Below are positions 4,436 to 27,061 of a stretch of 28,232 bases of DNA, piece after piece. The notes below the pieces were generated by a model. It saw only the letters and a program-made list of their open reading frames with translations, did not search any database and had not been told where the DNA came from. The DNA is taken from positions 1 to 28,232 of the IMG/VR virus record IMGVR_UViG_3300027759_003990; one strand, 5' to 3'. Numbering within the stretch: the stretch's first letter is position 1; every line of letters begins with the position of its first letter. Source of the DNA: a virus. Position numbers and translations under genes: made by a program.

Positions 4436-5368
4436 ATGGAACATTTATTATGGGTCGAGAAGTATCGGCCAAAAACAATTGAAGATTGTATTCTTCCCGA
4501 TGCGCTCAAAGAAACTTTTCAGGAGTTCGTTAAGAGAAAAGAAATACCAAATCTTCTTTTATCTGGTACGGCAGGTGTTGGAAAAACAACAGTTGCTAAA
4601 GCATTGTGTAATGAGGTTGGTTGCGATTATATTGTCATCAATGGCTCTGATGAGTCTGGCATTGATGTTCTCCGTAACAAAATTAAAAACTATGCTTCGT
4701 CAGTTTCTTTGGCTGGTGGCAGAAAAGTTGTCATCATTGATGAGGCTGATTATCTCAATCCTAATTCAACTCAACCTGCTTTACGGGGAGCCATTGAAGA
4801 ATTTGCATCAAACTGCTCATTCATCTTCACATGTAATTTCAAAAACCGTATCATCGATCCAATCCATTCTCGGTGTTCTGTCATCGATTTTAAAATCAAC
4901 GGTTCTAAACCAAAGCTGGCGTCACAGTTCTTTAAAAGAGTTGAAAGTATTCTTGAGCAAGAAGGTGTCAAATATTCAAAAGATGTCGTGGCGGCAGTTA
5001 TCACAAAACACTTCCCAGACCATCGTAGAATTCTTAACGAATTGCAACGATACTCGGTATCTGGCACCATTGATACTGGCATCCTTTCTAATATTAGTGA
5101 TATACAATTTGAGTCACTAATTTCATCTTTAAAAGATAAAGACTTTGCATCTACTCGTAAATGGGTTACTGCTAATCTGGATAATGATCCAACAAAAATT
5201 TATCGTAAGATATATGATTCACTATATGATGTTCTTACACCTAGTTCGGTTCCGCAACTAGTTCTCATACTGGCCAAATACCAGTATCAATCTGCCTTTG
5301 TGGCCGACCACGAAATCAATATGATTGCTTGTTTGACCGAAATTATGGTAGATTGTGAGTTCAAATGA
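4436..5368 (+). CDS. 44: Clamp loader large subunit (T4 gp44-like AAA+ ATPase)
   Basis: This 310-residue AAA+ ATPase loads the gp45 ring using ATP. Visible motifs are the family N-terminal signature WVEKYRPKTIEDCILP (6-21), Walker A GTAGVGKT (44-51), Walker B VVIIDEAD (98-105) and the SRC arginine-finger motif (145-147). The length matches T4 gp44 (319). In the loader, four gp44 subunits combine with one gp62. It starts after a TGGGAG site, and its stop overlaps the next start (ATGA). Unlike T4, gene 62 does not follow directly: two extra genes intervene. Confidence 0.96.
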   Translation: MEHLLWVEKYRPKTIEDCILPDALKETFQEFVKRKEIPNLLLSGTAGVGKTTVAKALCNEVGCDYIVINGSDESGIDVLRNKIKNYASSVSLAGGRKVVIIDEADYLNPNSTQPALRGAIEEFASNCSFIFTCNFKNRIIDPIHSRCSVIDFKINGSKPKLASQFFKRVESILEQEGVKYSKDVVAAVITKHFPDHRRILNELQRYSVSGTIDTGILSNISDIQFESLISSLKDKDFASTRKWVTANLDNDPTKIYRKIYDSLYDVLTPSSVPQLVLILAKYQYQSAFVADHEINMIACLTEIMVDCEFK

Positions 5369-8412: not shown

Positions 8413-9321
8413 ATGAAGAAAATTATTGCGAGTTTGTTTTTGTTGATGCTTTCATGGACTGCACAGGCTGAATCTGTTCGAACTCCTGGAGTCTGGGGTT
8501 TTGCTGTGGGATCCACACAAGGCACTTATTTTCGTGCCATACTAGAACAAGCAAATTTGGACCAAAAAAAATATCAATTCGTATTTGAACACAAACCTGG
8601 TGCCGGCGGTAGTATTGCCACACGTTCAGTATTAGAAAATAAAGGACCTGTGATTCTTGCGCACACTGCGGCTTTTTACGTTCGGCCGTATTTGTATTCG
8701 GACACTGGTTATAATTTTGACCAGTTTCGTCCTATATTGGTAATGGGTTCCGCTCCTGCTGTATTGACCACTCGTGGTAAAACCTTGGATCAATTACTAA
8801 AACAACCCCGAATTATCTTGGGCACGGCTGGTGCTGGTAGTAGTACACACCTCATGGCCGAAGTGTTCAAAAGTTATATCAAAGGTCCAGAAGTGACCAT
8901 GGTGCATTTTAAAGACACTAATGAAGCCTATCTTAATGTCATGGGTGGACATGTGGATGCAAACTTTGAATTTTTGGGTGACGCAATTGCCAGAGCCACT
9001 CCCGAAATCACCTTTGCTGGTATGACTGGCACAGTCAGCGTCAACAACATTCCATTATTACTCAATCGTGGCATGCCAGATATGGCACAGGTCAACAACA
9101 TTTTTGCCATCTATGTACCAGCAAACATGAGTCCAGAAACCTACACCGAACTGCGTGCCATTTTGTTAAAAGCTGAAAAAAGTTCCAAAGTGCAAGAACT
9201 TTATGTTAAAGATTTTACATATAGAGATCCAAAACACCTACAAACTCAGTACTTGCAGTCCTGGTATCAGGACAATATAACACGATTCAAACGATTAACC
9301 GTAAATATACAACTACAATAA
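8413..9321 (+). CDS. TctC/Bug-family periplasmic solute-binding protein
   Basis: This 302-residue protein belongs to the tripartite tricarboxylate transporter substrate-binding family. The start chosen is the ATG at 8413 after AAAGGA; it opens a signal peptide (MKKIIASLFLLMLSWTAQA, predicted cleavage before Glu20). Family motifs follow: HKPGAGGSIATR (60-71), GTAGAGSSTHLMAEVFK (137-153) and a VHFKDTNEAYLNVMGGHVD block (164-182). Such proteins capture carboxylates or other organic acids in the periplasm for TctAB-type permeases, and are most expanded in Betaproteobacteria. No permease gene is present, so it would serve a host transporter. Counted lines are 38-50% G+C (8821-8880 is 30/60), richer than the phage core, suggesting later acquisition from a host. 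Confidence 0.9.
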   Translation: MKKIIASLFLLMLSWTAQAESVRTPGVWGFAVGSTQGTYFRAILEQANLDQKKYQFVFEHKPGAGGSIATRSVLENKGPVILAHTAAFYVRPYLYSDTGYNFDQFRPILVMGSAPAVLTTRGKTLDQLLKQPRIILGTAGAGSSTHLMAEVFKSYIKGPEVTMVHFKDTNEAYLNVMGGHVDANFEFLGDAIARATPEITFAGMTGTVSVNNIPLLLNRGMPDMAQVNNIFAIYVPANMSPETYTELRAILLKAEKSSKVQELYVKDFTYRDPKHLQTQYLQSWYQDNITRFKRLTVNIQLQ

Positions 9322-11067: not shown

Positions 11068-11142
11068 AGCGGGGTAGCTCAGAGGTAGAGCATTGGACTC
11101 ATAATCCAGGGGCCGTAGGTTCGATTCCTTCCCCCGCAACCA
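11068..11142 (+). tRNA. tRNA-Met (anticodon CAT), initiator-like acceptor end
   Basis: Anchoring on T8-A9-G10 gives acceptor positions 2-7 GCGGGG pairing with 66-71 CCCCGC, while position 1 (A, 11068) faces A72: an unpaired 1:72 end as in bacterial initiator tRNA, and the 3' end CCCCCGCAACCA is identical to E. coli tRNA-fMet. The anticodon loop is CTCATAA (CAT at 11100-11102). The D-stem GCTC/GAGC and anticodon stem TTGGA/TCCAG are elongator-like, lacking three G-C pairs. CCA is encoded. The T-stem has one T-T mismatch (50:64). Alternatives are elongator Met or lysidine-modified Ile. Confidence 0.9.
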
Positions 11143-11301: not shown

Positions 11302-12297
11302 ATGGATAATAAAAATTATATTTGGATCAATAGATTTAATTTAGACTATGAAAAATATCCGAATAGAAAAAAACACAAATCTTTTTTTGATTTAGAATTT
11401 CCTGTTGACCGATTTAATATTGTTCCAGGTTTATTAGAATTACCTTGTATCAATATAGTAAAAGAACCAAAATTCAATTTAGATAATATCTCAAATGATT
11501 TTGAAGATAGATATTATTCAGTAATAGAGCAAGTTGTTAATAATGTTTATAAGTTTGCTCAAAACAAAACCATACATTTGTTTTATAGTGGTGGTATTGA
11601 TAGTGTATGTGTTTTAGTTGCTTTACAAAAAAATAAAAAATACAAAGAATTTCTTGCTGAAAACCGTTTTTTCATTTGTATGACATCAAAAAGTATAGAT
11701 GAATATCCAAACTTTTTCTCCAATCACATACAAAATAAAATTCCCATAAGATTATTGAATTTTAATGAATCAATGAATGATTCAAATGTTCTAGTTGTGT
11801 CTGGAGATATGGGAGATTATATAATAGGTTCCAGTGATGCATTAAATTTTGAAATCGATAATTTGATGGACAATTGGAAAAAATTAAATATTGATAATGA
11901 ATTGTATTCTAAAACTATCAAAAGATGCCCATTTGATATTACTTCAATTAATCAATACGTCTGGTGGATAAACCAATGTTTTTCATATCAAGATGAGTTG
12001 GTTCGTTATTATGTTTGGTCATCAACAAAAGATATACAATCAATACCAACTGATGAAAAAGTTTTTAGATTTTTTTATGACGATTTATTTACCACATATT
12101 CTTACGAATACATGAGTACGAATCCATATTACACTGATGCAAAACAATTAAAGCATTGGCCAAAAAAGTTTATACATAATTTTACAAAAGACGATTCTTA
12201 TTTACATAAAGAAAAAATTTGTAGTCAAAAAATGATACCAAAAACACTACAAAAAAATAGTTTATTTGTGGAAAACAAAGTTATTAAAAGTGATTAA
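11302..12297 (+). CDS. PP-loop ATPase A (asparagine-synthetase-like domain)
   Basis: This 331-residue protein has an ATP-pyrophosphatase motif, IHLFYSGGIDSVCVLVAL with SGGIDS at 96-101, and a second glycine-rich block SGDMGDYIIGSSDA (167-180) that resembles the GDGADE.F.GY region of asparagine synthetase C-terminal domains. Such enzymes adenylate a carboxyl or carbonyl group and let an amine or sulfur nucleophile displace AMP. No glutaminase domain is present, so the nitrogen donor is unknown. Its start lacks a clear Shine-Dalgarno. It is followed without a gap by gene B. DNA is very AT-rich here (12301-12360, at the start of gene B, has 13/60 G+C). Confidence 0.75.
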   Translation: MDNKNYIWINRFNLDYEKYPNRKKHKSFFDLEFPVDRFNIVPGLLELPCINIVKEPKFNLDNISNDFEDRYYSVIEQVVNNVYKFAQNKTIHLFYSGGIDSVCVLVALQKNKKYKEFLAENRFFICMTSKSIDEYPNFFSNHIQNKIPIRLLNFNESMNDSNVLVVSGDMGDYIIGSSDALNFEIDNLMDNWKKLNIDNELYSKTIKRCPFDITSINQYVWWINQCFSYQDELVRYYVWSSTKDIQSIPTDEKVFRFFYDDLFTTYSYEYMSTNPYYTDAKQLKHWPKKFIHNFTKDDSYLHKEKICSQKMIPKTLQKNSLFVENKVIKSD

Positions 12298-13509
12298 ATG
12301 CAGACAAATAATTTTTTAGGTTATTATAAAACTAATGGCCAAATATTTACAGATAAGTTATCTTGTATATTAGAAGCTCAAAAAACATTATCAGATATAA
12401 CTTGGCATTTTAATGATGATGTGTTTCAAAAAGTTAATTGGAATATTGAACCACAATTAACTTTGGATGAATATTATAAGTTAAGAGCTCAACAAATCAG
12501 AGATAGATTTGATTATGTTATTATTATGTGTAGTGGTGGTGCCGATAGCACTAATGTTTTATATTCTTTTTTAAATAATAATATACGAGTTGATGAAATA
12601 GTTTCTGGTGCTCCTTTGTCCGGTTTAAAAAATTGGAATTTTAACGACAAAGATTATTCAGCAAATAACACAATAAGTGAAACAAAATTTGCTTTATTTC
12701 CATTACTTAACAAAGTCGCTTCCCATCATCCTTCAATTAAAATTACAATCAATGATTGGTTTGAAGATGTGATTCAATATAAAACCGATGAATGGTTATA
12801 CAATAGTGGAGACTGGATTTCTCCAACAAGTGCTTGTGACCGTAGTTTAGATAAATTTAAACATCTCGTTGATTTGGCTGAAAGTGGTAAAAAAATTGCT
12901 GTTGTTTACGGTATAGATAAGCCTATGATAAGATTTAGTAACAATGGTAATATCAATCTCCGCATTTTTGATAGTGCAATAAACATAGCTAGACAACCAT
13001 TCAAAACAAATTACTCTAATGTTGAAAGAGTTTTATTCTATTATACTCCAGAGTTGCCAGAAATGATGGTCAAACAATGCCATATTGTTTCAAAATATTT
13101 ACATAAAGCTGAAAACAAACATATCATAGAATATATTCATGCATTACAAAATGTAGCAAACCAAAGTTTTGAACTACAAGGTTTAAATTTTTCTGGCCGC
13201 ACTGACGATAGGCCTAAGGGCGAATACCAAAGAGCAATTGTTCCTGCCATATATCCACAAACATATCATTCCAATTTTAAAGATGTATTTCAATGTAAAA
13301 AGGCATGGGGTACATTTATGAATGAACAACATAGTTGGTTCTATGAGTTGCATAAAGATGCAAAAATATATGAGATGATGAAAAGTGATTTTCAATCATT
13401 CTATAAGAATATAGATAGTAAATATTTAAAAGATTCAGGTGCAGGGTTTAAAACATTTTCAAATTACTATAAAATAGGTTTGATAGAAAACTTCAAAATA
13501 ACCTCATGA
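12298..13509 (+). CDS. PP-loop ATPase B (paralogue of C)
   Basis: This 403-residue protein has a PP-loop YVIIMCSGGADSTNVL with SGGADS at 79-84, after an N-terminal region beginning GYYKTNGQIFTDKLSCILEA. The block KKIAVVYGIDKPMIRF (about 198-213) and the C-terminal WFYELHKDAKIYEM...SDFQSFYKNIDSKYL are shared with gene C. It is about half identical to C along its length, so the two arose by duplication; roles as a heterodimer or as successive steps are both possible. The ATG follows the gene A stop directly. The reaction and substrate are unknown; no thiouridine, NAD or GMP synthetase signature was recognised. Confidence 0.7.
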   Translation: MQTNNFLGYYKTNGQIFTDKLSCILEAQKTLSDITWHFNDDVFQKVNWNIEPQLTLDEYYKLRAQQIRDRFDYVIIMCSGGADSTNVLYSFLNNNIRVDEIVSGAPLSGLKNWNFNDKDYSANNTISETKFALFPLLNKVASHHPSIKITINDWFEDVIQYKTDEWLYNSGDWISPTSACDRSLDKFKHLVDLAESGKKIAVVYGIDKPMIRFSNNGNINLRIFDSAINIARQPFKTNYSNVERVLFYYTPELPEMMVKQCHIVSKYLHKAENKHIIEYIHALQNVANQSFELQGLNFSGRTDDRPKGEYQRAIVPAIYPQTYHSNFKDVFQCKKAWGTFMNEQHSWFYELHKDAKIYEMMKSDFQSFYKNIDSKYLKDSGAGFKTFSNYYKIGLIENFKITS

Positions 13510-14675
13510 AAAAGTGGCTAGGCACATACACAGTTAATGGAAAAATATTTTCTGATAAAATTGAAGCAATATTGGAAGCCAATAAAACATTAGCTGATAT
13601 TAATTGGTCATTTCATGATGAAAAATTAAGAAAAATTAAATGGTATGTTGAACCAGAATTACCATTACAAACGTATTACAAGCTTAGAGCCGAACAAATA
13701 CGGAATGAATATGACTATGTTGTTATCATGTTTAGTGGTGGAGCGGACAGTAGAAACATAATACAAACTTTTATAAAAAACAATATTAAAATTGATGAGG
13801 TAATAACTAGCATTCCTGAAACTGGTTTAAATAATTATAAAATAAATAGTCAAAATATTAATTCTGAAAATGCTGCAAGTGAATGGGAACTTTCAGTATA
13901 TCCTGTGTTAAAAGAATTATCAAATTTTTATCCAAATATTAAAATAACAATCAACGATTTATTTAAAAATATGTTGGATTATAAAAGTGATGAATGGTTA
14001 TATCAAAGTTCTGATTGGATACATCCTTCTACTGTTGCAAGATATAAACTAGAAAATTTGAAACACCTAAAAGATTTGGCAGAACAAGGCAAAAAAATTG
14101 GTGTAATTTATGGAACCGATAAACCTTTTTTAGTCTATGAGAACAATGGTTGGTTGACAAGTGTTATTTCAGATTTGGCTGTTAATGTGGCAAGAAGTCC
14201 TTTTGACAATGATTATTCAAATGTTGATATAGTTTTATTTTATTATACCGTTGATATGCCAGAATTAATGATAAAACAATCTCATGTTTTAGCCAGATGG
14301 ATAAATTTACCAGAAAATAACCATATAAAATATTTAATTTACGATAATAGAATTGGTAATGAAACATTTAAAAATACTGTGTATGATAAAATACAAAATA
14401 GCCATTATCAAAGAGAAATAATACCTTGCATTTATCCGGATATCGACATGAAAGAAATATTTCAAGCTCACAAATCACATCAAAATTTTATGGCTCATCA
14501 TGACAATTGGTTCTATGAGTTACATAAAGATACAAAAATATATCAGATGATTAATAGTGATTTTCAATCATTCTATAAGAATATAGATAGTAAATATTTA
14601 AATCGTAACAAAACCGGTTTTCGTCTTTTTAGGCAAGCATTTGGATTGGGGAAAATAGAAAGATTTTTTAATTAA
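13506..14675 (+). CDS. PP-loop ATPase C (paralogue of B)
   Basis: This 389-residue protein has PP-loop YVVIMFSGGADSRNII with SGGADS at 77-82, and the B-like blocks LGTYTVNGKIFSDKIEAILEA, EPELPLQTYYKLRAEQIR, KKIGVIYGTDKPFLVYENNG and WFYELHKDTKIYQM. Compared with B it lacks a loop of about 15 residues near residue 285. It starts within the B stop (ATGA), so A, B and C form one tight operon. Its stop meets the stop of the opposite-strand amidohydrolase with no terminator between them. The 3' end includes a 47-base stretch identical to gene B. Confidence 0.7.
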   Translation: MKKWLGTYTVNGKIFSDKIEAILEANKTLADINWSFHDEKLRKIKWYVEPELPLQTYYKLRAEQIRNEYDYVVIMFSGGADSRNIIQTFIKNNIKIDEVITSIPETGLNNYKINSQNINSENAASEWELSVYPVLKELSNFYPNIKITINDLFKNMLDYKSDEWLYQSSDWIHPSTVARYKLENLKHLKDLAEQGKKIGVIYGTDKPFLVYENNGWLTSVISDLAVNVARSPFDNDYSNVDIVLFYYTVDMPELMIKQSHVLARWINLPENNHIKYLIYDNRIGNETFKNTVYDKIQNSHYQREIIPCIYPDIDMKEIFQAHKSHQNFMAHHDNWFYELHKDTKIYQMINSDFQSFYKNIDSKYLNRNKTGFRLFRQAFGLGKIERFFN

Positions 14676-15721
14676 AGACCGAATAATTTTTCGGCATTTT
14701 TGTAAGCTATATTTTCTAAGTCTTTAATTGGTAGTATAGATTTTTTTAAATCTTTAACATCATTAAACTTGTTGGATCCAAAAGGATCTTCATGTGGGTA
14801 ATCGGTGCAAAATAATAATCTATCACTACCAAATTCGTCTACCATATATTTTAAAGTTTCGGTTTTTTCCACATCTACCGCAATGAAAAGATTATTTTTA
14901 AAATAATGTAAAGGATCATTTTTAAATTGATTTTTTAAATTTTTATAACAATTAATTATCAAATAGTCATAGACTTCTGCAATCACTATTTTAATTTTTG
15001 GAAAACGATCTAATAGTCCAGAAACTATTAAGTCATAAATTAATAGTTCTTTATCTATAAGAGTATCATTTTTGTGAATAGATTTATACTGTAAAGAATA
15101 TTTTTTGGATACTTTTGCATGATGCATTGCAGTATGAGCAAAAATTATAATATTATTCTTTTCACATTTTTCAAATAACAAATCAATATCTTTTATAGTA
15201 GATAATGGCCGGCATCCTTTATCATATTCATCCAAATAAATTATATCAATGTATATTGCTTTAAAATTATTTTCTATAACCCAATCAATTTCTTTTAATG
15301 CTAGTTTCATATTTTGTACGGCAACCATTGCAACTGAAAAAAATCTATTAGGATAAGAATCTACAATTTTTTTAATTTCTATATTGAAACTGTGTGCCAT
15401 TTCAGCAGCCAAATTAGGTTCAACAGAAGTATTAAATCTCATAGTATATTCTTGAGGACCTAATAATTGTTTGTCAATGCCTAAAGAGTCCAAATATTCT
15501 AGTCGGTGTTTTATACTGGAAATTCCTGGCAAAACACAATGTTTGTTTATTGGTGCCATTCGATTGTAATTGATTTTTACCGGATCAGATTTACAAATAA
15601 ATTTTGTTATTTTTTGATTTGAATCAAATTCATATTTCGGTATCAATTCTTTATATTGTTCGGATACATTATCAAATACGGTTGGGGGGATAAAATGACT
15701 ATCACAGTCAATAATTTTCAT
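14672..15721 (-). CDS. Amidohydrolase-2 family protein (ACMSD-like TIM barrel)
   Basis: This 349-residue protein resembles the PF04909 metal-dependent hydrolase/decarboxylase family. It has an N-terminal DCDSHFIPP (5-13, the DxH metal motif), IIIFAHTAMHH (with metal-site His), FCTDYPHEDPFGS (with the late conserved Asp) and the family ending NAEKLFGL. The usual His-rich strand motif after the barrel middle reads IVIAEVYDYL, so one ligand may be replaced. Family members decarboxylate or hydrolyse small ring or carboxylate substrates. AAAGG precedes the ATG, and a late-type TATAAATA lies 32 bases upstream on this strand. It converges on the PP-loop operon, sharing the stop-codon region. Confidence 0.75.
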   Translation of the reverse strand: MKIIDCDSHFIPPTVFDNVSEQYKELIPKYEFDSNQKITKFICKSDPVKINYNRMAPINKHCVLPGISSIKHRLEYLDSLGIDKQLLGPQEYTMRFNTSVEPNLAAEMAHSFNIEIKKIVDSYPNRFFSVAMVAVQNMKLALKEIDWVIENNFKAIYIDIIYLDEYDKGCRPLSTIKDIDLLFEKCEKNNIIIFAHTAMHHAKVSKKYSLQYKSIHKNDTLIDKELLIYDLIVSGLLDRFPKIKIVIAEVYDYLIINCYKNLKNQFKNDPLHYFKNNLFIAVDVEKTETLKYMVDEFGSDRLLFCTDYPHEDPFGSNKFNDVKDLKKSILPIKDLENIAYKNAEKLFGL

Positions 15722-15752: not shown

Positions 15753-15760
15753 TATTTATA
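15753..15760 (-). promoter_or_regulatory. T4 late-type promoter octamer for the amidohydrolase
   Basis: Reading the minus strand, TATAAATA runs from 15760 to 15753, 32 bases before the amidohydrolase ATG. It is an exact match to the T4 late consensus, but the surroundings are very AT-rich, so chance is possible. Confidence 0.5.
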
Positions 15761-16210: not shown

Positions 16211-16654
16211 TTATAATTTATACAATTTAAAAAAGTATGTTACTAAAGCAGCAGCTGTCATACACCACCAAAAAAGCTGAGCTTGTTTTTGCCTATCTTT
16301 ATCCATGAATTTTAATTCTTCAGCTCTTTCTTTTTCCATTTTTGCTTTTGTGGCTTCAACTTCTGCCCAAGCAGCTTTACCATATTTTTTAATAGCTTCC
16401 AGTTTTAACTGTTCAATTTTTAGTTGGTGAGCTTTTTCTTTTTGATATTTTTCGTAGGCCTTAAACTCTGCCATTGTGGCTAAGTATTCTTGTTCGGCTT
16501 TGGCTTTCATTCTTTGAATGTGCTGTTGTTGGACCGCCTTTTCCATATCGGCTTGTTGGTCAGTAACTACAGAACTTAATTGTTTGCTTGCTCCTTGAGC
16601 AGCTTTAAAGGTATTAACGGCACCTTGAGCGCCGGCAACAATAGGATCAGCCAT
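16211..16654 (-). CDS. Coiled-coil protein with C-terminal membrane anchor
   Basis: This 147-residue protein begins MADPIVAGAQGAVNTFKAAQ at 16654. An upstream in-frame ATG at 16738 would add 28 unrelated residues across the opposite-strand promoter, so it is not chosen. Residues 35-122 are a long charged helix rich in Ala, Lys, Glu and Gln, predicted coiled coil. The end LFWWCMTAAALVTYFFKLYKL is a single transmembrane helix, making it tail-anchored with the coil in the cytoplasm. No Shine-Dalgarno is evident. It leads a minus-strand set with two tiny membrane peptides. A structural, spanin-like or membrane-remodelling role is possible, but none is shown. Confidence 0.65.
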   Translation of the reverse strand: MADPIVAGAQGAVNTFKAAQGASKQLSSVVTDQQADMEKAVQQQHIQRMKAKAEQEYLATMAEFKAYEKYQKEKAHQLKIEQLKLEAIKKYGKAAWAEVEATKAKMEKERAEELKFMDKDRQKQAQLFWWCMTAAALVTYFFKLYKL

Positions 16655-16706
16655 TTGATTTTTTTTAATTGTGTTATGGGAATAATAAAGAATACCAAAT
16701 GTCAGA

Positions 16707-16735
16707 TTGACAAGGTCTTGAGAATAACGTATAAT
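16707..16735 (+). promoter_or_regulatory. Perfect-consensus sigma70 promoter upstream of the polymerase operon
   Basis: TTGACA (16707-16712), 17 bp, TATAAT (16730-16735): both hexamers match consensus exactly. It reads into the Sm-like gene and polymerase 43, restoring strong early transcription after the island. It overlaps the 5' flank of the minus-strand coiled-coil gene. Confidence 0.88.
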
Positions 16736-16776
16736 CACATCAACTACATACTTATTTATAACGTGGAGATAATCAA

Positions 16777-17090: not shown

Positions 17091-19628
17091 TTGAGCAATT
17101 TTTATACAAATGTTCAATGTTTCGGTAACAACATATTATATCGAGGCATTCAAAATGGCAAAAGAGTGAAGGATAAAATCAATTATTCTCCTTCACTTTT
17201 TATACCTTCCAAAAAAATAACAAACTACACCTCACTTGAAGGTGATTATCTTGATGAGAAAAAATTTGCCTCTGTCAAAGCGGCAAGAGATTACATCAAA
17301 CAATTTGAAGATGTGTCTGGGGCCCCTAAGATTTGTGGCCAAACTCGATTTGAATATGCTTTTATTGCCGACCAACATGGCATGGTCGATTATGATTATG
17401 AAAAAGTATCTGTTGCTGTAATCGATATTGAGGTTGGTTCAGAGAATGGCTTTCCTGATCCATACGAAGCAAACGAACCTATTACAGCAATCTGTTTAAA
17501 ATTCCTCAATGGTAAGCCAATCGTATTTGGCTGTGGTGAGTATCAAGTTGAAGAAGGTGAAATCTATATTCGTTGTAAAGATGAATACAATCTCTGTAAG
17601 AAATTCCTAGAGTTTTGGAAAGACAAATATCCAGACATCGTAACTGGCTGGAACACCAAGTTCTTTGATATACCTTATCTTGTCAATCGTTTTCGTAAGA
17701 TTTTAGGTGATGATGAAGCCAAGAAATTGTCGCCATGGAATTACATTACAGAACGCAAGGCATATGTAAACAATCGACAGTTAATTGATTACACACTTGT
17801 TGGTGTATCCTCACTTGATTATATTGAACTATACAAATGGTACGCACCAGGTGGTAAATCACAAGAGTCCTATCGTTTGGATAATATCGCACAAGTAGAA
17901 CTTGGTGAAGGTAAACTAGACTATGATGAGTATGATAACCTCAATGCTCTGTATCGTTTAAACTTTCAGAAGTTTATTGAGTACAACATTAAAGACGTTG
18001 AACTCATTATTAAACTTGAAGATAAATTAAAACTGATTGAACTGGCAGTAACTCTTGCCTATGACACCAAATCAAACTTTGAAGATGTGTTTGCTCAAAC
18101 TCGTATGTGGGATTCTCTAACATATTCCTATTTGTTTGAGAAAGGTATTATCGTACCACCAAGAGTTATTAAAGATAAAGATTCAGCATTTGAAGGTGCA
18201 TATGTTAAAGATCCACAAGTTGGTTCACACAATTGGGTTGCTTCATTTGACTTGAACTCTCTGTATCCACATTTGATGATGCAGTATAATATTTCACCAG
18301 AAACTTTGATTGAACCACAAAATTACACAGAAGAAATGCGTGAGATTATTTCACAAGGTGTTTCTGTTGATAAACTTCTAAAGAAAGAAGTTGACACATC
18401 TAAATTAAAAGATGCAACACTAACACCAAATGGCCAATTCTTCCGTACCGACTTTCAAGGTTTCTTACCAAAAATGATGGAAGAAATGTATGAAGATAGA
18501 AAGAAATTTAAGAAGCTGATGCTTCAAGCAAAACAGGAGTATGAAAATGAAACGGATGATTCCAAAAAATACGCAATCGAAAAACGAATTGCCAAATACA
18601 ATAACATTCAGTTGGCCAAAAAGGTCTCTCTTAACTCTGCTTATGGTGCTTTGGGTTCTCAGTATTTCCGTTTCTACGATTTGCGGATGGCTCTTGGCGT
18701 CACTACTGCTGGCCAATTAAGCATTCGTTGGATTGAGAATAAACTAAATCAATACATGAACAAATTGTTGGACACTAAAAATGATGACTACGTTATTGCG
18801 AGCGATACTGATTCGATTTATTTACGTCTTGGAGGCCTCGTTACAAAGGTCTATGGTGATAGAGATGTTGATACAAACAACATCATTGCATTCATGGATA
18901 AAGTATGTGATGATAAGATTCAACCGTTTATTGATGTTTCCTATCAAGAACTTGCAGATTACGTTAATGCGTATTCGCAGAAAATGGAGATGAAACGAGA
19001 GGCATTGTCTAACAAAGGATTGTGGACTGCCAAGAAACGATATATTCTAAACATTTTTAATAACGAAGGTGTATCATATAAAGAGCCATACATGAAAGTC
19101 ATGGGTTTAGAAATGATTAAGTCCTCAACACCATCTTCAATTCGTGAGAAGATGAAACAGGCTATCAAAATAATGATGTCTGGCACAGAACAAGACATAC
19201 ACAATTTTATTGCCAAGTTTAGAGAAGAATTTCGTAATCTACCACCAGAAGAAATATCTTTTCCCCGTGGTCTTAATGGTTTGAATAAATATTCAGATGC
19301 AGCCACTTTATATAAATTAGGAACACCAATTCATGTTAAAGGTGCAATTTTATATAACAACTTTTTAAATCAAAATAATCTTACCAAAAAATATCCACTC
19401 ATTCAAGAAGGCGAGAAGGTCAAGTTTACATACTTGAAGATGCCAAATCATTTTAAAGATACAGTCATTTCATATCCTTCACGATTACCAAAAGAATTAG
19501 GTTTGCATGATTATATCGATTATGATATGCAATTCGATAAAGCTTTCTTAGAACCAATCAAAGTCATTTTAGATTGTATGGGCTGGTCTACAGAAAAGGT
19601 AAGTACATTGGAGGACTTTTTCTCATGA
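17091..19628 (+). CDS. 43: DNA polymerase, family B (T4 gp43-like)
   Basis: This 845-residue replicative polymerase has a 3'-5' exonuclease. The N-terminus SNFYTNVQCFGNNILYRG aligns with T4 gp43 (KEFYISIETVGNNIVER), which fixes the start at a TTG codon; the next in-frame ATG is over 100 residues further in. Exonuclease ligands D112 and E114 lie in VIDIEVGS; IVTGWNTKFFDIPYL and YNIKDVELI are Exo II and III. Polymerase motif A is DLNSLYP (387-393), motif B KKVSLNSAYG (510-519), motif C DTDS (572-575), and AKKRY follows. The C-terminal STLEDFFS is a clamp-binding tail like that of T4. Shine-Dalgarno support is weak. The stop overlaps the next start. Confidence 0.97.
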   Translation: MSNFYTNVQCFGNNILYRGIQNGKRVKDKINYSPSLFIPSKKITNYTSLEGDYLDEKKFASVKAARDYIKQFEDVSGAPKICGQTRFEYAFIADQHGMVDYDYEKVSVAVIDIEVGSENGFPDPYEANEPITAICLKFLNGKPIVFGCGEYQVEEGEIYIRCKDEYNLCKKFLEFWKDKYPDIVTGWNTKFFDIPYLVNRFRKILGDDEAKKLSPWNYITERKAYVNNRQLIDYTLVGVSSLDYIELYKWYAPGGKSQESYRLDNIAQVELGEGKLDYDEYDNLNALYRLNFQKFIEYNIKDVELIIKLEDKLKLIELAVTLAYDTKSNFEDVFAQTRMWDSLTYSYLFEKGIIVPPRVIKDKDSAFEGAYVKDPQVGSHNWVASFDLNSLYPHLMMQYNISPETLIEPQNYTEEMREIISQGVSVDKLLKKEVDTSKLKDATLTPNGQFFRTDFQGFLPKMMEEMYEDRKKFKKLMLQAKQEYENETDDSKKYAIEKRIAKYNNIQLAKKVSLNSAYGALGSQYFRFYDLRMALGVTTAGQLSIRWIENKLNQYMNKLLDTKNDDYVIASDTDSIYLRLGGLVTKVYGDRDVDTNNIIAFMDKVCDDKIQPFIDVSYQELADYVNAYSQKMEMKREALSNKGLWTAKKRYILNIFNNEGVSYKEPYMKVMGLEMIKSSTPSSIREKMKQAIKIMMSGTEQDIHNFIAKFREEFRNLPPEEISFPRGLNGLNKYSDAATLYKLGTPIHVKGAILYNNFLNQNNLTKKYPLIQEGEKVKFTYLKMPNHFKDTVISYPSRLPKELGLHDYIDYDMQFDKAFLEPIKVILDCMGWSTEKVSTLEDFFS

Positions 19629-20644
19629 TTATGTTAACACTATTATCAGCATTATTACTATCAGGCATTGCAGCCTATTATTCCATTATTGGTTTGGCTG
19701 CAATCTTTACAGGCGCATTTTGGCCAATCGTTTTTATGGGTTCGGTTCTTGAGATGAGTAAATTAGTTACTGCATCATGGTTATATCGTAATTGGAAAAC
19801 CTGCCCACTTTTATTGAAATCATACTTGACATCTGCCGTAGTAGTATTAATGGTGATTACGAGTATGGGTATTTTTGGTTTTCTATCCCAAGCACACATT
19901 GATTCCACATTAGAAGCTGGTGCCAACTCAGTAGAAATAAGAACACTCAAACAGCAAGAAAAGATTGCCAATGAGCGATTAGAATATTTACTGAAGCGTG
20001 CAGGCAATCCTGAAACGGCATCAGCCAATGTCGATAGGCAAATTCAACAAACACAAAAAGAATTGGCTGATATCAATAAACGAAAATTACCATTATTAAA
20101 AGAAGAAAATAAACTAGTGGCAGAAGTTGGTCCTATCAAATATATTGGTGATATGATATATGGTACAGATGACACCAATGCCATTGATAAAGCAGTTCGT
20201 TTGGTAATTATGTTAATCATGGTTGTATTTGACCCCTTAGCTGTGTTATTATTAATAGCAGCAAATATGTCCATGCAACAGAGAAGTGGTAAACCAATTA
20301 TCAAAGATAATACTGTTGTTGGTTTGACACCAGAAACGGAAAGATTTAAAGTACATAAAAAAATCTGGAAGAAAAAAGAAAAAAAAGCCAATACAGAAAT
20401 AGATATTCCGGTATTTACAGAACAAGAAGAATTGGCAAATAATGTTATTAAAATTGAAAAAGAAAACATTACTGAGATTGAAGAAAAACCTGTGGAAGAT
20501 ATTGTAATTGATAGTGCTTCAGGTGAATCTATACCTCCAATAACAAAAAGTAAAAGAGGTTTTCCAAACAGGAAGACTAAAGAATTAACACCTAAGTATG
20601 ATTATGAAGATGAGTTTGCGTTTCGTGAAAAGGAAAAGAAATGA
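19625..20644 (+). CDS. Four-helix membrane protein with internal coiled coil
   Basis: This 339-residue protein starts at the ATGA overlapping the polymerase stop; an in-frame ATG at 19574 lies inside the polymerase and is not chosen. Hydrophobic helices lie near residues 2-21, 22-40, 63-86 and 197-224. Between the third and fourth is a charged coiled coil (about 100-175) and the block AEVGPIKYIGDMIYG. The last 110 residues are a charged, probably disordered cytoplasmic tail. The same protein plan sits next to polymerase in many T4-like phages of aquatic bacteria. Its function is unknown; membrane tethering of replication is a guess from position. Confidence 0.75.
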   Translation: MIMLTLLSALLLSGIAAYYSIIGLAAIFTGAFWPIVFMGSVLEMSKLVTASWLYRNWKTCPLLLKSYLTSAVVVLMVITSMGIFGFLSQAHIDSTLEAGANSVEIRTLKQQEKIANERLEYLLKRAGNPETASANVDRQIQQTQKELADINKRKLPLLKEENKLVAEVGPIKYIGDMIYGTDDTNAIDKAVRLVIMLIMVVFDPLAVLLLIAANMSMQQRSGKPIIKDNTVVGLTPETERFKVHKKIWKKKEKKANTEIDIPVFTEQEELANNVIKIEKENITEIEEKPVEDIVIDSASGESIPPITKSKRGFPNRKTKELTPKYDYEDEFAFREKEKK

Positions 20645-21723
20645 GTATACTTGATAAAATTAAAAAGAATAGTTCGATTAAAGAATCCGCTATTCTCTCA
20701 AAATCAAAATTCTTCACACAGAAGGATATGATACCAACATCGGTGCCCATTATTAATGTGGCATTGAGTGGTCGTTTGGATGGTGGCCTGACCCCAGGTC
20801 TTACAATGTGGGCCGGTCCATCAAAACATTTTAAAACTGCCTTTAGTTTGTTAATGGCAAAATCTTATTTGGACAAATATAATGATGCAGCGTTACTATT
20901 CTACGATTCTGAGTTTGGTACTCCTCAGTCTTATTTTGATAGCTTTGGTATTGATACCGAGCGAGTTCTACATACACCTCTTACTGATATTGAACAATTA
21001 AAGTTTGATATCATGCAACAATTAACTAATCTTGAAAGAGGTGATAGGTTAATTATTGTTATTGATTCAATCGGTAATTTGGCATCAAAGAAAGAAGTTG
21101 AAGATGCACTAGAAGGCAAATCAGTTGCTGATATGTCCCGTGCTAAACAAGTTAAAAGTTTATTCCGTATGGTGACGCCACACCTTACAATGAAAGATGT
21201 TCCAATGATTGTGGTAAATCACACATATAAAGAAATTGGTATGTTCCCTAAAGATATTGTAGGGGGTGGAACCGGTTCTTACTATTCTGCTGACAACATT
21301 TTTATTATTGGCCGTCAGCAAGAAAAGGAAGGTACAGAGGTTGTTGGTTACAACTTCATAATTAACGTGGAGAAATCACGCTATGTTAAAGAGAAATCTA
21401 AAATTCCTGTTACTGTTTCTTTTGATGGCGGTGTTAGCCGGTGGTCAGGCTTACTTGATTTGGCACTTGATTCAGGCCTTGTCGTTAAGCCTTCTAACGG
21501 GTGGTACAGTCGAGTTGATGTTTCTACCGGTGAAATAGAAGCAAAGAAATACAGAATAAAAGAAACAGATACCAAAGATTTCTGGATGCCTATTATCACC
21601 AGTAAAAAGTTTCAAGATTATGTAACAGACAAATACCAAATTGCAGCAGGTGAAATTATGCAAGGCGGTATTGATAATTTATTTGATGAAATTGTAACCA
21701 TGAATGGAACAGAAGATGAGTAA
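20641..21723 (+). CDS. uvsX: UvsX recombinase (RecA-like)
   Basis: This 360-residue RecA-family strand-exchange protein drives recombination-dependent replication. Walker A is GPSKHFKT (59-66; T4 UvsX has GPSKSFKS), the catalytic Glu lies in FYDSEFG (E91) and Walker B is RLIIVIDSIGNL (136-147). IVVNHTYKEIG and the Gly-rich VGGGTGSYYSAD fit the L2 region. Length is close to T4 (391). The acidic C-terminal tail ends TEDE. The start overlaps the membrane-protein stop (ATGA). UvsX works with gp46/47 and gp41, all in this window at least in part. Confidence 0.97.
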   Translation: MSILDKIKKNSSIKESAILSKSKFFTQKDMIPTSVPIINVALSGRLDGGLTPGLTMWAGPSKHFKTAFSLLMAKSYLDKYNDAALLFYDSEFGTPQSYFDSFGIDTERVLHTPLTDIEQLKFDIMQQLTNLERGDRLIIVIDSIGNLASKKEVEDALEGKSVADMSRAKQVKSLFRMVTPHLTMKDVPMIVVNHTYKEIGMFPKDIVGGGTGSYYSADNIFIIGRQQEKEGTEVVGYNFIINVEKSRYVKEKSKIPVTVSFDGGVSRWSGLLDLALDSGLVVKPSNGWYSRVDVSTGEIEAKKYRIKETDTKDFWMPIITSKKFQDYVTDKYQIAAGEIMQGGIDNLFDEIVTMNGTEDE

Positions 21724-21958: not shown

Positions 21959-22271
21959 AGGACTAGACTATTGTTTTATCTACCCTAAAAATGATGGTGC
22001 GGCTGTGCATATTAAGTTTTTAGAAGGACCATATAAAGATACCATATTCAAATATGGTAAAGTTAAATTTGAGGAAAAGAATGATTTGGTCTATTTACTT
22101 TTTGCATATGATGTGATAGAATCACCAGTTGATAAACCAAGAAAATTGGAAAAAGATGACAAGTTTAAGAACTACATTGGTGATTTACTTGTGGAATTAA
22201 TGAGCAGTAATATTGAACAGGAAGTAATTGATGAAACTGGAAACAGCAATACTGAAGAACCTCATCTATAA
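21951..22271 (+). CDS. Conserved hypothetical protein between uvsX and 41
   Basis: This 106-residue protein overlaps the upstream stop by eight bases and the helicase start by 41 bases. It begins with a small beta domain (YCFIYPKNDGAAVHIKFLEGPYKDTIFKYGKVKFEE, strands with YLLFAYDVIES), then a helix (KFKNYIGDLLVELM) and an acidic tail. In T4 the corresponding slot holds gene 40, but I see no resemblance to gp40. The long overlap suggests its translation sets the level of the helicase. Confidence 0.6.
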   Translation: MIEGLDYCFIYPKNDGAAVHIKFLEGPYKDTIFKYGKVKFEEKNDLVYLLFAYDVIESPVDKPRKLEKDDKFKNYIGDLLVELMSSNIEQEVIDETGNSNTEEPHL

Positions 22272-23622
22272 CGAGGAATTTTTAAGAAAAGTATTACCAT
22301 TTATCAGATTAGAATATTTTAGTGATAGCGTAGAAAAAGCATTATTCAATGAAATTACATCATTCACAGAGGCTTACAATAACACGCCAACGATTGAAGC
22401 ACTTAGTATTGCCATCAAAGAAAAGAGAAATCTTTCATCTGATGAAGTTCAGAGATGCGAAGATTATCTATCAGAGATTGAGAAGAATAAGTCAGCAGAA
22501 ACCGAAGTTCAATGGCTTGTTGACAAAACAGAAAAGTTCTGCCAAGAAAAAGCCATCTACAATGCAGTATTGGGGTCTATTTCAATTCTCGATGGTAAGG
22601 ATAAAAATCACGACAAAGGTCAGATTCCCAAGATATTATCAGACGCCTTGGCCGTTTCGTTTGACAACTCCGTAGGACATGATTATTTACAGGACTCAGA
22701 TGCTCGATATGAATTCTATCACAGAAAAGAAGAAAGAATCCCCTTTGACCTCGACTACTTCAACAAAATCACCAAAGGTGGTCTTCCAGCTAAAACACTT
22801 AATATTGCTTTGGCGGGGACTGGTGTTGGTAAATCTCTTTTTATGTGTCATGTGGCTGCTTCGTGCATGGTTCAGGGTAAAAATGTACTTTACATCACTT
22901 TGGAAATGAGTGAAGAAAAAATTGCAGAACGAATTGATGCCAATTTATTGAATGTAACAATTGATGATTTGATGGAGTTACCAAAGGACATATATGATAA
23001 AAAGGTTACCAGAGTCCGTGAGAAAACAACTGGCAAACTTATTATCAAAGAATATCCAACTGCCTCAGCATCAACTATTCACTTTAGGACACTATTAAAT
23101 GAACTTAATCTCAAGAGGTCTTTTGTACCTGATATTATATTCGTTGACTATCTCAATATTTGTTGTTCTGCTCGTATTAAGGCTGGTACGAATATTAATT
23201 CCTACACCTACGTTAAAGCAATTGCAGAAGAACTACGTGGCCTTGCTGTTGAGTATGATGTTCCTATTGTATCTGCTACACAAACTACCCGCTCAGGATT
23301 TACTTCCAGTGATCCGGGACTTGAGGATACGAGCGAATCGTTCGGACTTCCCGCCACCGCAGACTTGATGTTTGCTCTTATTTCTTCTGAAGAACTAGAA
23401 GAACTTGGTCAAATCATGGTGAAACAATTGAAGAATCGATATAATGATCCTACATTATACAAACGATTTACACTTGGTGTCGATAGAGCCAAAATGAAAC
23501 TCTATGATGTCGAACAGGCTGCACAACATGGATTGGCTGATGCTGGTCACGATAAACCTTTGAACACATTTGGTACCCGTGAACAACAGCCTAAAAAGAA
23601 ATTTGAAAATTTTAAAATATGA
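22231..23622 (+). CDS. 41: Replicative DNA helicase (T4 gp41-like, DnaB family)
   Basis: This 463-residue protein starts at the ATG at 22231, one codon after an in-frame TTG. It unwinds DNA ahead of the lagging-strand polymerase and activates primase. Walker A is AGTGVGKS (195-202), YITLEMSEE (221-229) is the DnaB H1a-type motif, IIFVDYLNIC is Walker B, and SESFGLPATADLMFAL is the late motif (T4: AESAGLPATADFMLAV). The N-terminal domain matches T4 gp41 (ILKNLIYNEEFLRKV). It overlaps the preceding gene by 41 bases and its stop overlaps the next DUF4338 start. Neither primase gp61 nor loader gp59 is in the window. Confidence 0.97.
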   Translation: MKLETAILKNLIYNEEFLRKVLPFIRLEYFSDSVEKALFNEITSFTEAYNNTPTIEALSIAIKEKRNLSSDEVQRCEDYLSEIEKNKSAETEVQWLVDKTEKFCQEKAIYNAVLGSISILDGKDKNHDKGQIPKILSDALAVSFDNSVGHDYLQDSDARYEFYHRKEERIPFDLDYFNKITKGGLPAKTLNIALAGTGVGKSLFMCHVAASCMVQGKNVLYITLEMSEEKIAERIDANLLNVTIDDLMELPKDIYDKKVTRVREKTTGKLIIKEYPTASASTIHFRTLLNELNLKRSFVPDIIFVDYLNICCSARIKAGTNINSYTYVKAIAEELRGLAVEYDVPIVSATQTTRSGFTSSDPGLEDTSESFGLPATADLMFALISSEELEELGQIMVKQLKNRYNDPTLYKRFTLGVDRAKMKLYDVEQAAQHGLADAGHDKPLNTFGTREQQPKKKFENFKI

Positions 23623-24728
23623 TATTAACTAGAGACCAAGCACTTCATTGTGCCAAAGTGTTTGATGATTACTTTAGTACAATTGGAAGTACCGAAGAAT
23701 ACATGCGTGATGAGAAACTGAAGAATGTGGCTGATATGCCATCTTCTTTATTTCCTATTGAAGATGATTTGTTCTCCGATTTCTCTATGCATCCAAAAGA
23801 TATGGGTATTGAGGTATGTGAAATACCAAATGATGTTTGGGAACCATTACTTGCCATTACCAGTTCACACATTAATAAATCACCAGTTGGTAAGAATATA
23901 CAATTGGCTGTCAAAGAAAAGAACACAGGAAAGATTCTAGGATTCATTCGTTTAGGTTCACCAGTCATCTATATGAAACCCCGTAATGACTACCTAGGAC
24001 AAGTTTGGATTCAACAGGAAGATACTGCCAAACGATTCAATGCTTCTTGTGCCATGGGATTTGTAATCGTACCATCTCAGCCATTTGGATTTAACTATCT
24101 TGGCGGTAAACTACTATCTGCTATTTGTACCAGCCACACCGTTAGGGAAATATGTAATAAAAAATATGGCATGAATCTTTGCCTATTTGAAACCACCAGT
24201 TTGTATGGCACAACAAAGAATGTATCACAATATGATGGCATGAAACCATATATTCGTTTTAAGGGTTTGACCGACTCCGATATTGTACCAATGATGCACG
24301 GCCAAAGATATCATGATTTGAAAAACTATGTGGAAAATATTACTGGAGATTTGTTGGGTGGAGATACTTCAACAACAAGTAGAAAACTCAGAACATTTAC
24401 TAAGATTATTGCTCTCACCAAAGCTGCATTAAAAGGAACATCTGAGGGAGATGCTTTCTCTTTAACGATTGAGAACGCCAAAAAGTTGACAGAAAAGAAA
24501 CGATATTACATTTCTGATTATGGATTTAAGAATACAGTAGATTACATGAACTGTAAGATCGATAAACTTTTACCTGGTGAAAATTACGATAAACACGAAT
24601 TGAGTAACGTAATTGAATGGTGGCGGACCAAAGCTATAAATAGATATGAAACCCTCAAAGTAGAGGGTAGGTTAAGGACAGAATTAGAAATCTGGACTTC
24701 AGGCAAAGACATTCAAATTATTAGGTAA
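23619..24728 (+). CDS. DUF4338 (DruA-like) protein, copy 2
   Basis: This 369-residue paralogue of the gene at 689 shares with it QPFGFNYLGGKLL (154-166), ETTSLYG (191-197) and SQYDGM (203-208). It has a different N-terminus (MILTRDQALHCAKVFDDYF) and a C-terminal block (KKRYYISDYGFKNTVDYM) that DruA-type proteins also tend to end with. Identity outside the core looks low, so the two copies are old or independently gained. It starts within the helicase stop (ATGA), meaning it is made with gp41. Its function is unknown; possibilities are counter-defence, exclusion of other phages, or DNA transactions at the fork. Confidence 0.72.
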   Translation: MILTRDQALHCAKVFDDYFSTIGSTEEYMRDEKLKNVADMPSSLFPIEDDLFSDFSMHPKDMGIEVCEIPNDVWEPLLAITSSHINKSPVGKNIQLAVKEKNTGKILGFIRLGSPVIYMKPRNDYLGQVWIQQEDTAKRFNASCAMGFVIVPSQPFGFNYLGGKLLSAICTSHTVREICNKKYGMNLCLFETTSLYGTTKNVSQYDGMKPYIRFKGLTDSDIVPMMHGQRYHDLKNYVENITGDLLGGDTSTTSRKLRTFTKIIALTKAALKGTSEGDAFSLTIENAKKLTEKKRYYISDYGFKNTVDYMNCKIDKLLPGENYDKHELSNVIEWWRTKAINRYETLKVEGRLRTELEIWTSGKDIQIIR

Positions 24729-26338: not shown

Positions 26339-27061
26339 ATGTCCGCAACTGTGATTATACCAACTACTGGTTCACCAGAGGTTATTGAAGCTATTAAATC
26401 TGTATTAGACCAAACATATGACACCAAGTGTTATGTTGTATGTGATGGTCCTGATTTTACTTATACTGTAAGGAATATGCTAAGATGGGTTGAAAAACAT
26501 CCAAATTACCATAGATTAAAACTCTGTAATCTTCCAATCAATGTCGGTGCCAAAGGATTTTATGGTCACCGTGTCTATGCAGCCTTCACACATTTAATCG
26601 ATACAGACTATGTTATGTGGCTCGACCAAGACAATTGGTTGTATCAGAGCCACGTTGCTAAATGTATTGAAACAATACAAAAACGAAATCTTGATTGGTG
26701 CTATGCGTTGCGACAAGTACACGACAAAAGTGGTAAGTTTGTTTGTTTTGATGATTGTGAATCATTAGGTAAATGGCAAACATATCATGGAATTCATCAT
26801 ATAGATACTAATAGCTATTGCCTTAAAACAGAAATTGCTGTAAAATTGGCCTCTGCGTGGCATGGAGGCTGGGGACAAGATAGAGTGTTCTTACAAGCTG
26901 TTACACAACATTTCCCTAAATGGGATTGTACAAATGAATATACAGTACATTATCGTACTGATGGTGGTAAAGGTTCTGTGACACCAGATTTCTTTATCAA
27001 TGGAAATGAAGTAATGTTGAAAAAATATGATGGGAAATATCCATGGCGTCAAAAAACTTAA
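26339..27061 (+). CDS. Glycosyltransferase family 2-like protein
   Basis: This 240-residue GT-A enzyme has a GT2 N-terminus ATVIIPTTGSPEVIEAIKSVLDQTY (3-27), D36 in VCDGPD contacting the nucleotide, and a DQD metal site in MWLDQDNW (93-100). The acceptor-side region has GWGQDRVFL (177-185) with the likely catalytic acid. It likely glycosylates phage DNA, capsid or a cell-surface molecule. It overlaps the next gene by 19 bases and is first of three adjacent genes with sugar-transfer character. Confidence 0.8.
   Translation: MSATVIIPTTGSPEVIEAIKSVLDQTYDTKCYVVCDGPDFTYTVRNMLRWVEKHPNYHRLKLCNLPINVGAKGFYGHRVYAAFTHLIDTDYVMWLDQDNWLYQSHVAKCIETIQKRNLDWCYALRQVHDKSGKFVCFDDCESLGKWQTYHGIHHIDTNSYCLKTEIAVKLASAWHGGWGQDRVFLQAVTQHFPKWDCTNEYTVHYRTDGGKGSVTPDFFINGNEVMLKKYDGKYPWRQKT

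Follow-up and report, generated by a model that had tools for sequence, protein, structure and literature searches.

Genes A to D of the window (the whole stretch analysed, a 28,232-base IMG/VR virus record that is a phage fragment from an environmental DNA sample; Table 1), together with the solute-binding proteins encoded beside relatives of B, have about an even chance of forming a virus-borne metabolite module in which B and C would adenylate a carboxylate and D would process an acid of the same pathway. An earlier reading of the sequence alone (the sequence-only reading) had described SGGIDS, SGGADS and SGGADS motifs in three consecutive genes, 0-base or ATGA junctions between them, and an opposite-strand amidohydrolase meeting the third gene at its stop codon. 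All three motifs were found intact. The stop codon of A (TAA, 12295-12297) and the ATG of B are separated by 0 bases, B and C overlap by a shared ATGA (13506-13509), and the C stop (TAA, 14673-14675) overlaps the minus-strand stop of D (14672-14674), an Amidohydro_2 protein, so that the two genes lie tail to tail. The three PP-loop genes are not equivalent, however: B and C are paralogues (47% identity), while A belongs to another family.

Table 1. Features of the window and of related loci; coordinates refer to the window unless a locus (L number) is given.
Feature	Position	Strand	Remarks
Clamp-loader-like gene	4436-5368	+	reading of translation
TctC-type (Bug) solute-binding protein	8413-9321	+	signal peptide present; recurrent B-family neighbour
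tRNA-Met(CAT)	11068-11142	+	border of low-GC island
A, asparagine-synthetase-like PP-loop protein, 331 aa, without glutaminase domain	11302-12297	+	FYSGGIDS; VVSGDMGDYIIGS
B, PP-loop ATPase, family near-restricted to viruses, 403 aa	12298-13509	+	MCSGGADS; SGGADS = residues 79-84
C, paralogue of B, 389 aa	13506-14675	+	MFSGGADS, intact
D, Amidohydro_2 (COG2159-type), 349 aa	14672-15721	-	PF04909 match
Terminator-like hairpin, T-rich tail on each strand	14679-14694	both	C/D convergence (end of D)
TATAAATA, T4-late-promoter-like	15753-15760	-	about 30 bases upstream of D
DNA polymerase-like gene	17091-19628	+	reading of translation
RecA-like gene	20641-21723	+	reading of translation
Helicase-like gene	22228-23622	+	reading of translation
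Gene of about 205 aa after an A-family gene	L099 7025-7651; L100 7049-7687; L101 7038-7655; L102 7013-7672; L103 7038-7652; L105 7056-7688; L106 7044-7724; L107 6860-7489		
B-family neighbours (PurD-like ATP-grasp, cytochrome P450, Rieske, nitronate monooxygenase-like)	L017 6742-8007; L049 3936-5129; L044 12539-13426; L016 13869-14837		

The ABCD order was kept in L001, a related 17 kb contig (amino acid identity 67, 80, 78 and 92% for A, B, C and D respectively). The dN/dS ratios between the window and L001 were 0.17 in A, 0.12 in B, 0.10 in C and 0.07 in D, with dS near saturation for A to C, and purifying selection acts on all four genes. This selection and the recurrence of the gene order in L001, in L010 (A, then the start of B) and in L018 (C and D) make A to D more than a chance assembly. 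Only close relatives of the window phage are known to share the strict A-B-C-D cassette, and A+B+C+D as a general cassette was rejected, the linkage of A to B being limited to those relatives among the loci read. The recurrence in other phages proposed in the sequence-only reading as a check was borne out for the PP-loop pair and the amidohydrolase, which occur together in another phage lineage, but not for the four genes as a set. A late promoter for D was also considered and rejected: TATAAATA lies upstream of both minus-strand genes (of the second, 16211-16738, at 16753-16760 on the minus strand), yet its total in the window was not above chance. Elsewhere in the window there are two DruA-like genes (689-1954 and 23619-24728; PADLOC DruA1, 1e-14 and 3e-6 respectively; PF14236, 5e-19 for the first), members of a family known from the Druantia anti-phage system and found here within a phage.

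One profile scan of IMG/VR returned at least 490 relatives of B, 80 of which were kept. A scan of 84,980 prokaryote genomes with one short peptide pattern returned a single match, and "virus-only" here means not found at that sensitivity. The lone match (L090), probably a phage fragment, is a contig of 3,156 bases from a Methylococcaceae MAG; besides one B gene it has two more regions matching the B profile. In 50,697 deposited phage records, tblastn with A, B, C and three diverse B members gave no match. The B family is large and essentially restricted to uncultured viruses. In BFVD, B matched A0A6J5TD96 ("Uncharacterized protein [uncultured Caudovirales phage]"; 45% identity, TM 0.91-0.93); such entries share the family and fold of B, but have no function assigned. 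No account of the family or of its linkage to solute-binding proteins was found in openly licensed papers.

The recurrent neighbours of the B family are PF03480 (DctP) and PF03401 (TctC) proteins. A TctC gene was present within 6 kb in 44 of the 68 nonredundant B loci, compared to 5 of the 61 nonredundant A-family loci (p = 1e-11), and a DctP gene in 39/68 compared to 2/61 (p = 3e-12); this linkage partly reflects descent among related phages. By contrast, desaturases (16/68 B vs. 14/61 A loci) and the PP-loop family c4 (16/68 vs. 14/61) generally accompany both. In 29/68 B loci, two or more B members are close neighbours. The window, which like the other contigs is a fragment, showed no DctP gene. 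The c4 family is a third, divergent and weakly QueC-like PP-loop family with several copies per locus (L044 10449-14299; L102 2940-11347). Other neighbours of the B family include PurD-like ATP-grasp, cytochrome P450, Rieske and nitronate monooxygenase-like genes (Table 1), which look like variable tailoring enzymes.

The viral neighbours resemble the solute-binding proteins of TRAP (DctP) and TTT (TctC) transporters in their Pfam membership, but differ from them in that viral DctP has no signal peptide and in that an unsystematic look noticed no membrane-subunit genes nearby. TctC has a clear signal peptide, while DctP starts at the mature domain (median peak N-terminal hydropathy 2.48 vs. 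1.06), and since the signal peptide is missing, the viral DctP proteins should, as judged from their N-termini, be cytosolic. DctP-fold proteins of this kind were seen in L016 (10375-11331), L044 (5694-6638) and about 40 other cases, with conserved AHxP and YSGG stretches. The neighbours could also reflect nitrogen or carbon scavenging, the solute-binding proteins hijacking host uptake and the PP-loop/amidohydrolase pair turning an acid into a host-usable amide or amine, as auxiliary metabolism with no special product. Phages carry solute-binding protein genes, such as PstS in cyanophages, and TctC is secreted, its closest solved relatives (BugD and a terephthalate-binding protein) binding carboxylates. 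We nevertheless consider scavenging unlikely: it leaves unexplained the two co-inherited PP-loop paralogues and the cytosolic DctP, and the family is near-absent from cellular genomes, whereas close homologues in hosts are the rule for ordinary auxiliary metabolic genes.

Searches of Pfam, NCBIfam, PHROG and PADLOC gave no convincing family for A, B or C, in agreement with the sequence-only reading, which had proposed an undescribed set of PP-loop ATPases. None of the PADLOC anti-phage defence models was matched by A to D, the 97 B-family members scanned showed no meaningful Pfam or PHROG family, and sequence searches of the PDB with A and B returned chance matches only. SGGxDS was intact in 96 of the 97 rows of the B-family alignment. 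K20, R63, R68, D99, E128, K208, F247 and K335 were invariant and K259 and H262 nearly so, while no cysteine was conserved (no Cys column above 37/97). The many invariant basic residues and the lack of a conserved cysteine suit an anionic substrate and not thiolation. The AF2 model of B built from the 97-row alignment had a pLDDT of 95.5, with a strand (residues 73-77), a loop (79-81) and a helix (82-92) that place SGGxDS at the end of strand 1. B and C are N-type PP-loop ATPases. The closest PDB fold to B was carbapenam synthetase (1q15/1q19; E 1.3e-3, prob 0.99, TM about 0.3), followed by TtuA, GMPS, LarE, NADS and beta-lactam synthetase. The best match covers the predicted fold poorly, and the N- and C-terminal parts of B may do something else. 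Carbapenam synthetase (CarA) and beta-lactam synthetase share with B the SGGxDS ATP site and need no glutamine-derived ammonia; they differ in that B lacks their Ntn/glutaminase-like N-terminal domain (its PP-loop core begins at about residue 56), has no sequence match to them and an unlike C-terminal half, and belongs to a paralogue pair.

As relatives of QueC, TilS, DndC or ThiI, the PP-loop proteins would instead modify a nucleobase, in tRNA or in phage DNA against restriction. QueC-like PP-loop genes for deazaguanine DNA are known in some phages, the PHROG "QueC-like" model touched A (E 0.004), and Pfam QueC touched c4 at E 0.0017, below the cut-off. A to C had no PF06508 match (1 of the 97 B members reached E 0.005) and the B family had no Cys4 zinc site, nor did A to C match any profile of LarE, TtuA, ThiI, MnmA or PAPS reductase/DndC. 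No family cut-off was reached by A, B or C, as expected from the sequence-only reading, in which no QueC, TilS, DndC or GuaA signature had been recognised. Thiolation and zinc-dependent QueC chemistry need a conserved cysteine and are disfavoured because none was found anywhere in B. No RNA- or DNA-binding domain was recognised, and the neighbours are solute-binding proteins, desaturases, PurD-like ATP-grasp, P450, Rieske and radical SAM genes, not queF, queD or DNA-transglycosylase genes. The nucleobase or tRNA function suggested earlier is thus unsupported, and we regard it as improbable.

In sequence comparison, A had only the motif in common with B and C, and it is a separate, asparagine-synthetase-like PP-loop family. 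SGGxDS was kept in 9 of 9 aligned A members. The model of A had a pLDDT of 59, with block values of 71-94 in the PP-loop core (residues 70-170 approximately) and poor values in the rest; from its motif and this weak model, A is a putative member of the N-type PP-loop superfamily. Its structural matches were weak (asparagine synthetase, ASNS, and TsnB9). Asparagine synthetase B (PF00733) and TsnB9-type amidotransferases share with A the SGGIDS motif and a GDxGD-(I/F)-x-G-like block, but A lacks their glutaminase domain with its N-terminal Cys (the PP-loop helices begin after only about 60 residues). No Pfam match was obtained for A, PF00733 included, and one relative reached E 0.018. Almost all other loci with an A-family gene lack B; A stands outside the wider module and was added in the window's phage lineage only. 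A gene of about 205 aa comes after the A-family gene in other phages (Table 1), and its translations are alike by eye, suggesting a two-gene unit; the window lacks this gene and has B after A instead.

D matched PF04909 (Amidohydro_2) at 3.3e-17 (63.6 bits, cut-off 26.4). The relatives of D with solved structures are 2,3-dihydroxybenzoate, salicylate, gamma-resorcylate and ACMS (ACMSD) decarboxylases, which act on aromatic or dicarboxylic acids. D7, H9, H196 and D307 were invariant in six relatives and are candidate metal ligands, which we assume by analogy with gamma-resorcylate decarboxylase. D keeps the metal-ligand positions of the Amidohydro_2/COG2159 decarboxylases, but its first motif is DxH rather than HxH and it makes up a separate viral group, with 42-48% identity from one lineage to the other; its matches in deposited phage records were distant generic amidohydrolases. 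As D was present in six contigs, compared to about 490 B-family loci, it is accessory, not core.

In the tree, the window B grouped with the first genes and the window C with the second genes of the tandem pairs in L013, L014 and L016 (99/99 and 100/100). By this grouping, the B-C pair is older than the split of the two phage lineages, with its order kept since, and such co-inheritance may reflect a heteromer or two linked or sequential steps. The order in L013, L014 and L016 is B-C-DctP-TctC-D on one strand, whereas D is convergent in the window. D was nearby at every untruncated C-clade locus, and once without C in reach (L094). The association of C with D gave p = 7.5e-5 with C called by similarity (the C of L013 was missed, the tree placing it in the C clade), a generous value as the phages are related. 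The L013 and L016 contigs each carry the full set of C, DctP, TctC and D. The L020 contig has flanking genes in common with L013 and L016 and has kept B, but over its entire 125 kb D, DctP and TctC were missing and there was no second strong B-family gene (C). That these four genes were gained or lost together speaks for a common function. The L020 contig also bears on a surface glycan or sugar amide made or tailored by A to D in the manner of an N-sugar amidotransferase: epimerase and c18 genes adjoin the BC pair in L013-L016 and there are glycosyltransferases in the window (26339-27061), but epimerase and c18 are also present in L020 without C or D and so are not tied to the module, and no profile search linked A to C to sugar amidotransferases, which leaves this reading with a low probability. 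Chance cargo, unrelated genes gathered in a variable low-GC region beside a tRNA, draws on the island just past tRNA-Met (25-29% GC vs. 33.6% overall) and on the separate occurrence of A, and perhaps holds for A, but for B, C and D it is very improbable given their paired orthology and joint absence in the second lineage.

N-type PP-loop enzymes adenylate a substrate oxygen and release pyrophosphate. In the metabolite module that we favour, B and C would bind ATP and adenylate a carboxylate or carboxylate-like small molecule, releasing pyrophosphate, and an amine or ammonia would attack the adenylate to form an amide-type bond, as in carbapenam, beta-lactam and asparagine synthetases but without a glutaminase domain. 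Adenylation followed by amine or ammonia attack is the simplest scheme because there is neither a glutaminase domain nor a conserved cysteine; three features point to a carboxylic acid as substrate: the basic residues, the neighbours that bind carboxylates, and the kinship of D with acid-processing enzymes. We infer adenylation, substrate, step order and product from these features. D, with its metal-dependent amidohydrolase fold, would most likely decarboxylate or hydrolyse an acid of the same pathway. In the relatives, secreted TctC would capture the carboxylate in the periplasm and the DctP-fold protein would handle it, or act on it, in the cytosol; in the window lineage, A would add an asparagine-synthetase-like ligase step. 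The small-molecule function proposed in the sequence-only reading was the better half of its guess, given the carboxylate-binding and metabolic neighbours. More speculatively, and with rather low confidence, the pathway could be a viral invention, with uptake by secreted TctC, a cytosolic DctP-fold protein that is perhaps an enzyme, and B/C ligases leading to a metabolite that cells do not make, tailored variably by D, desaturases, P450, Rieske and PurD-like ligases.

The BC pair, DctP, TctC and D are a small set amenable to expression and assay. Auxiliary metabolic genes are usually seen as borrowed from hosts. The B family is ATP-using, near-absent from sequenced cells and deposited phages, common in environmental viruses and reproducibly tied to carboxylate-binding proteins; should it produce a metabolite, viruses would have biosynthesis of their own.
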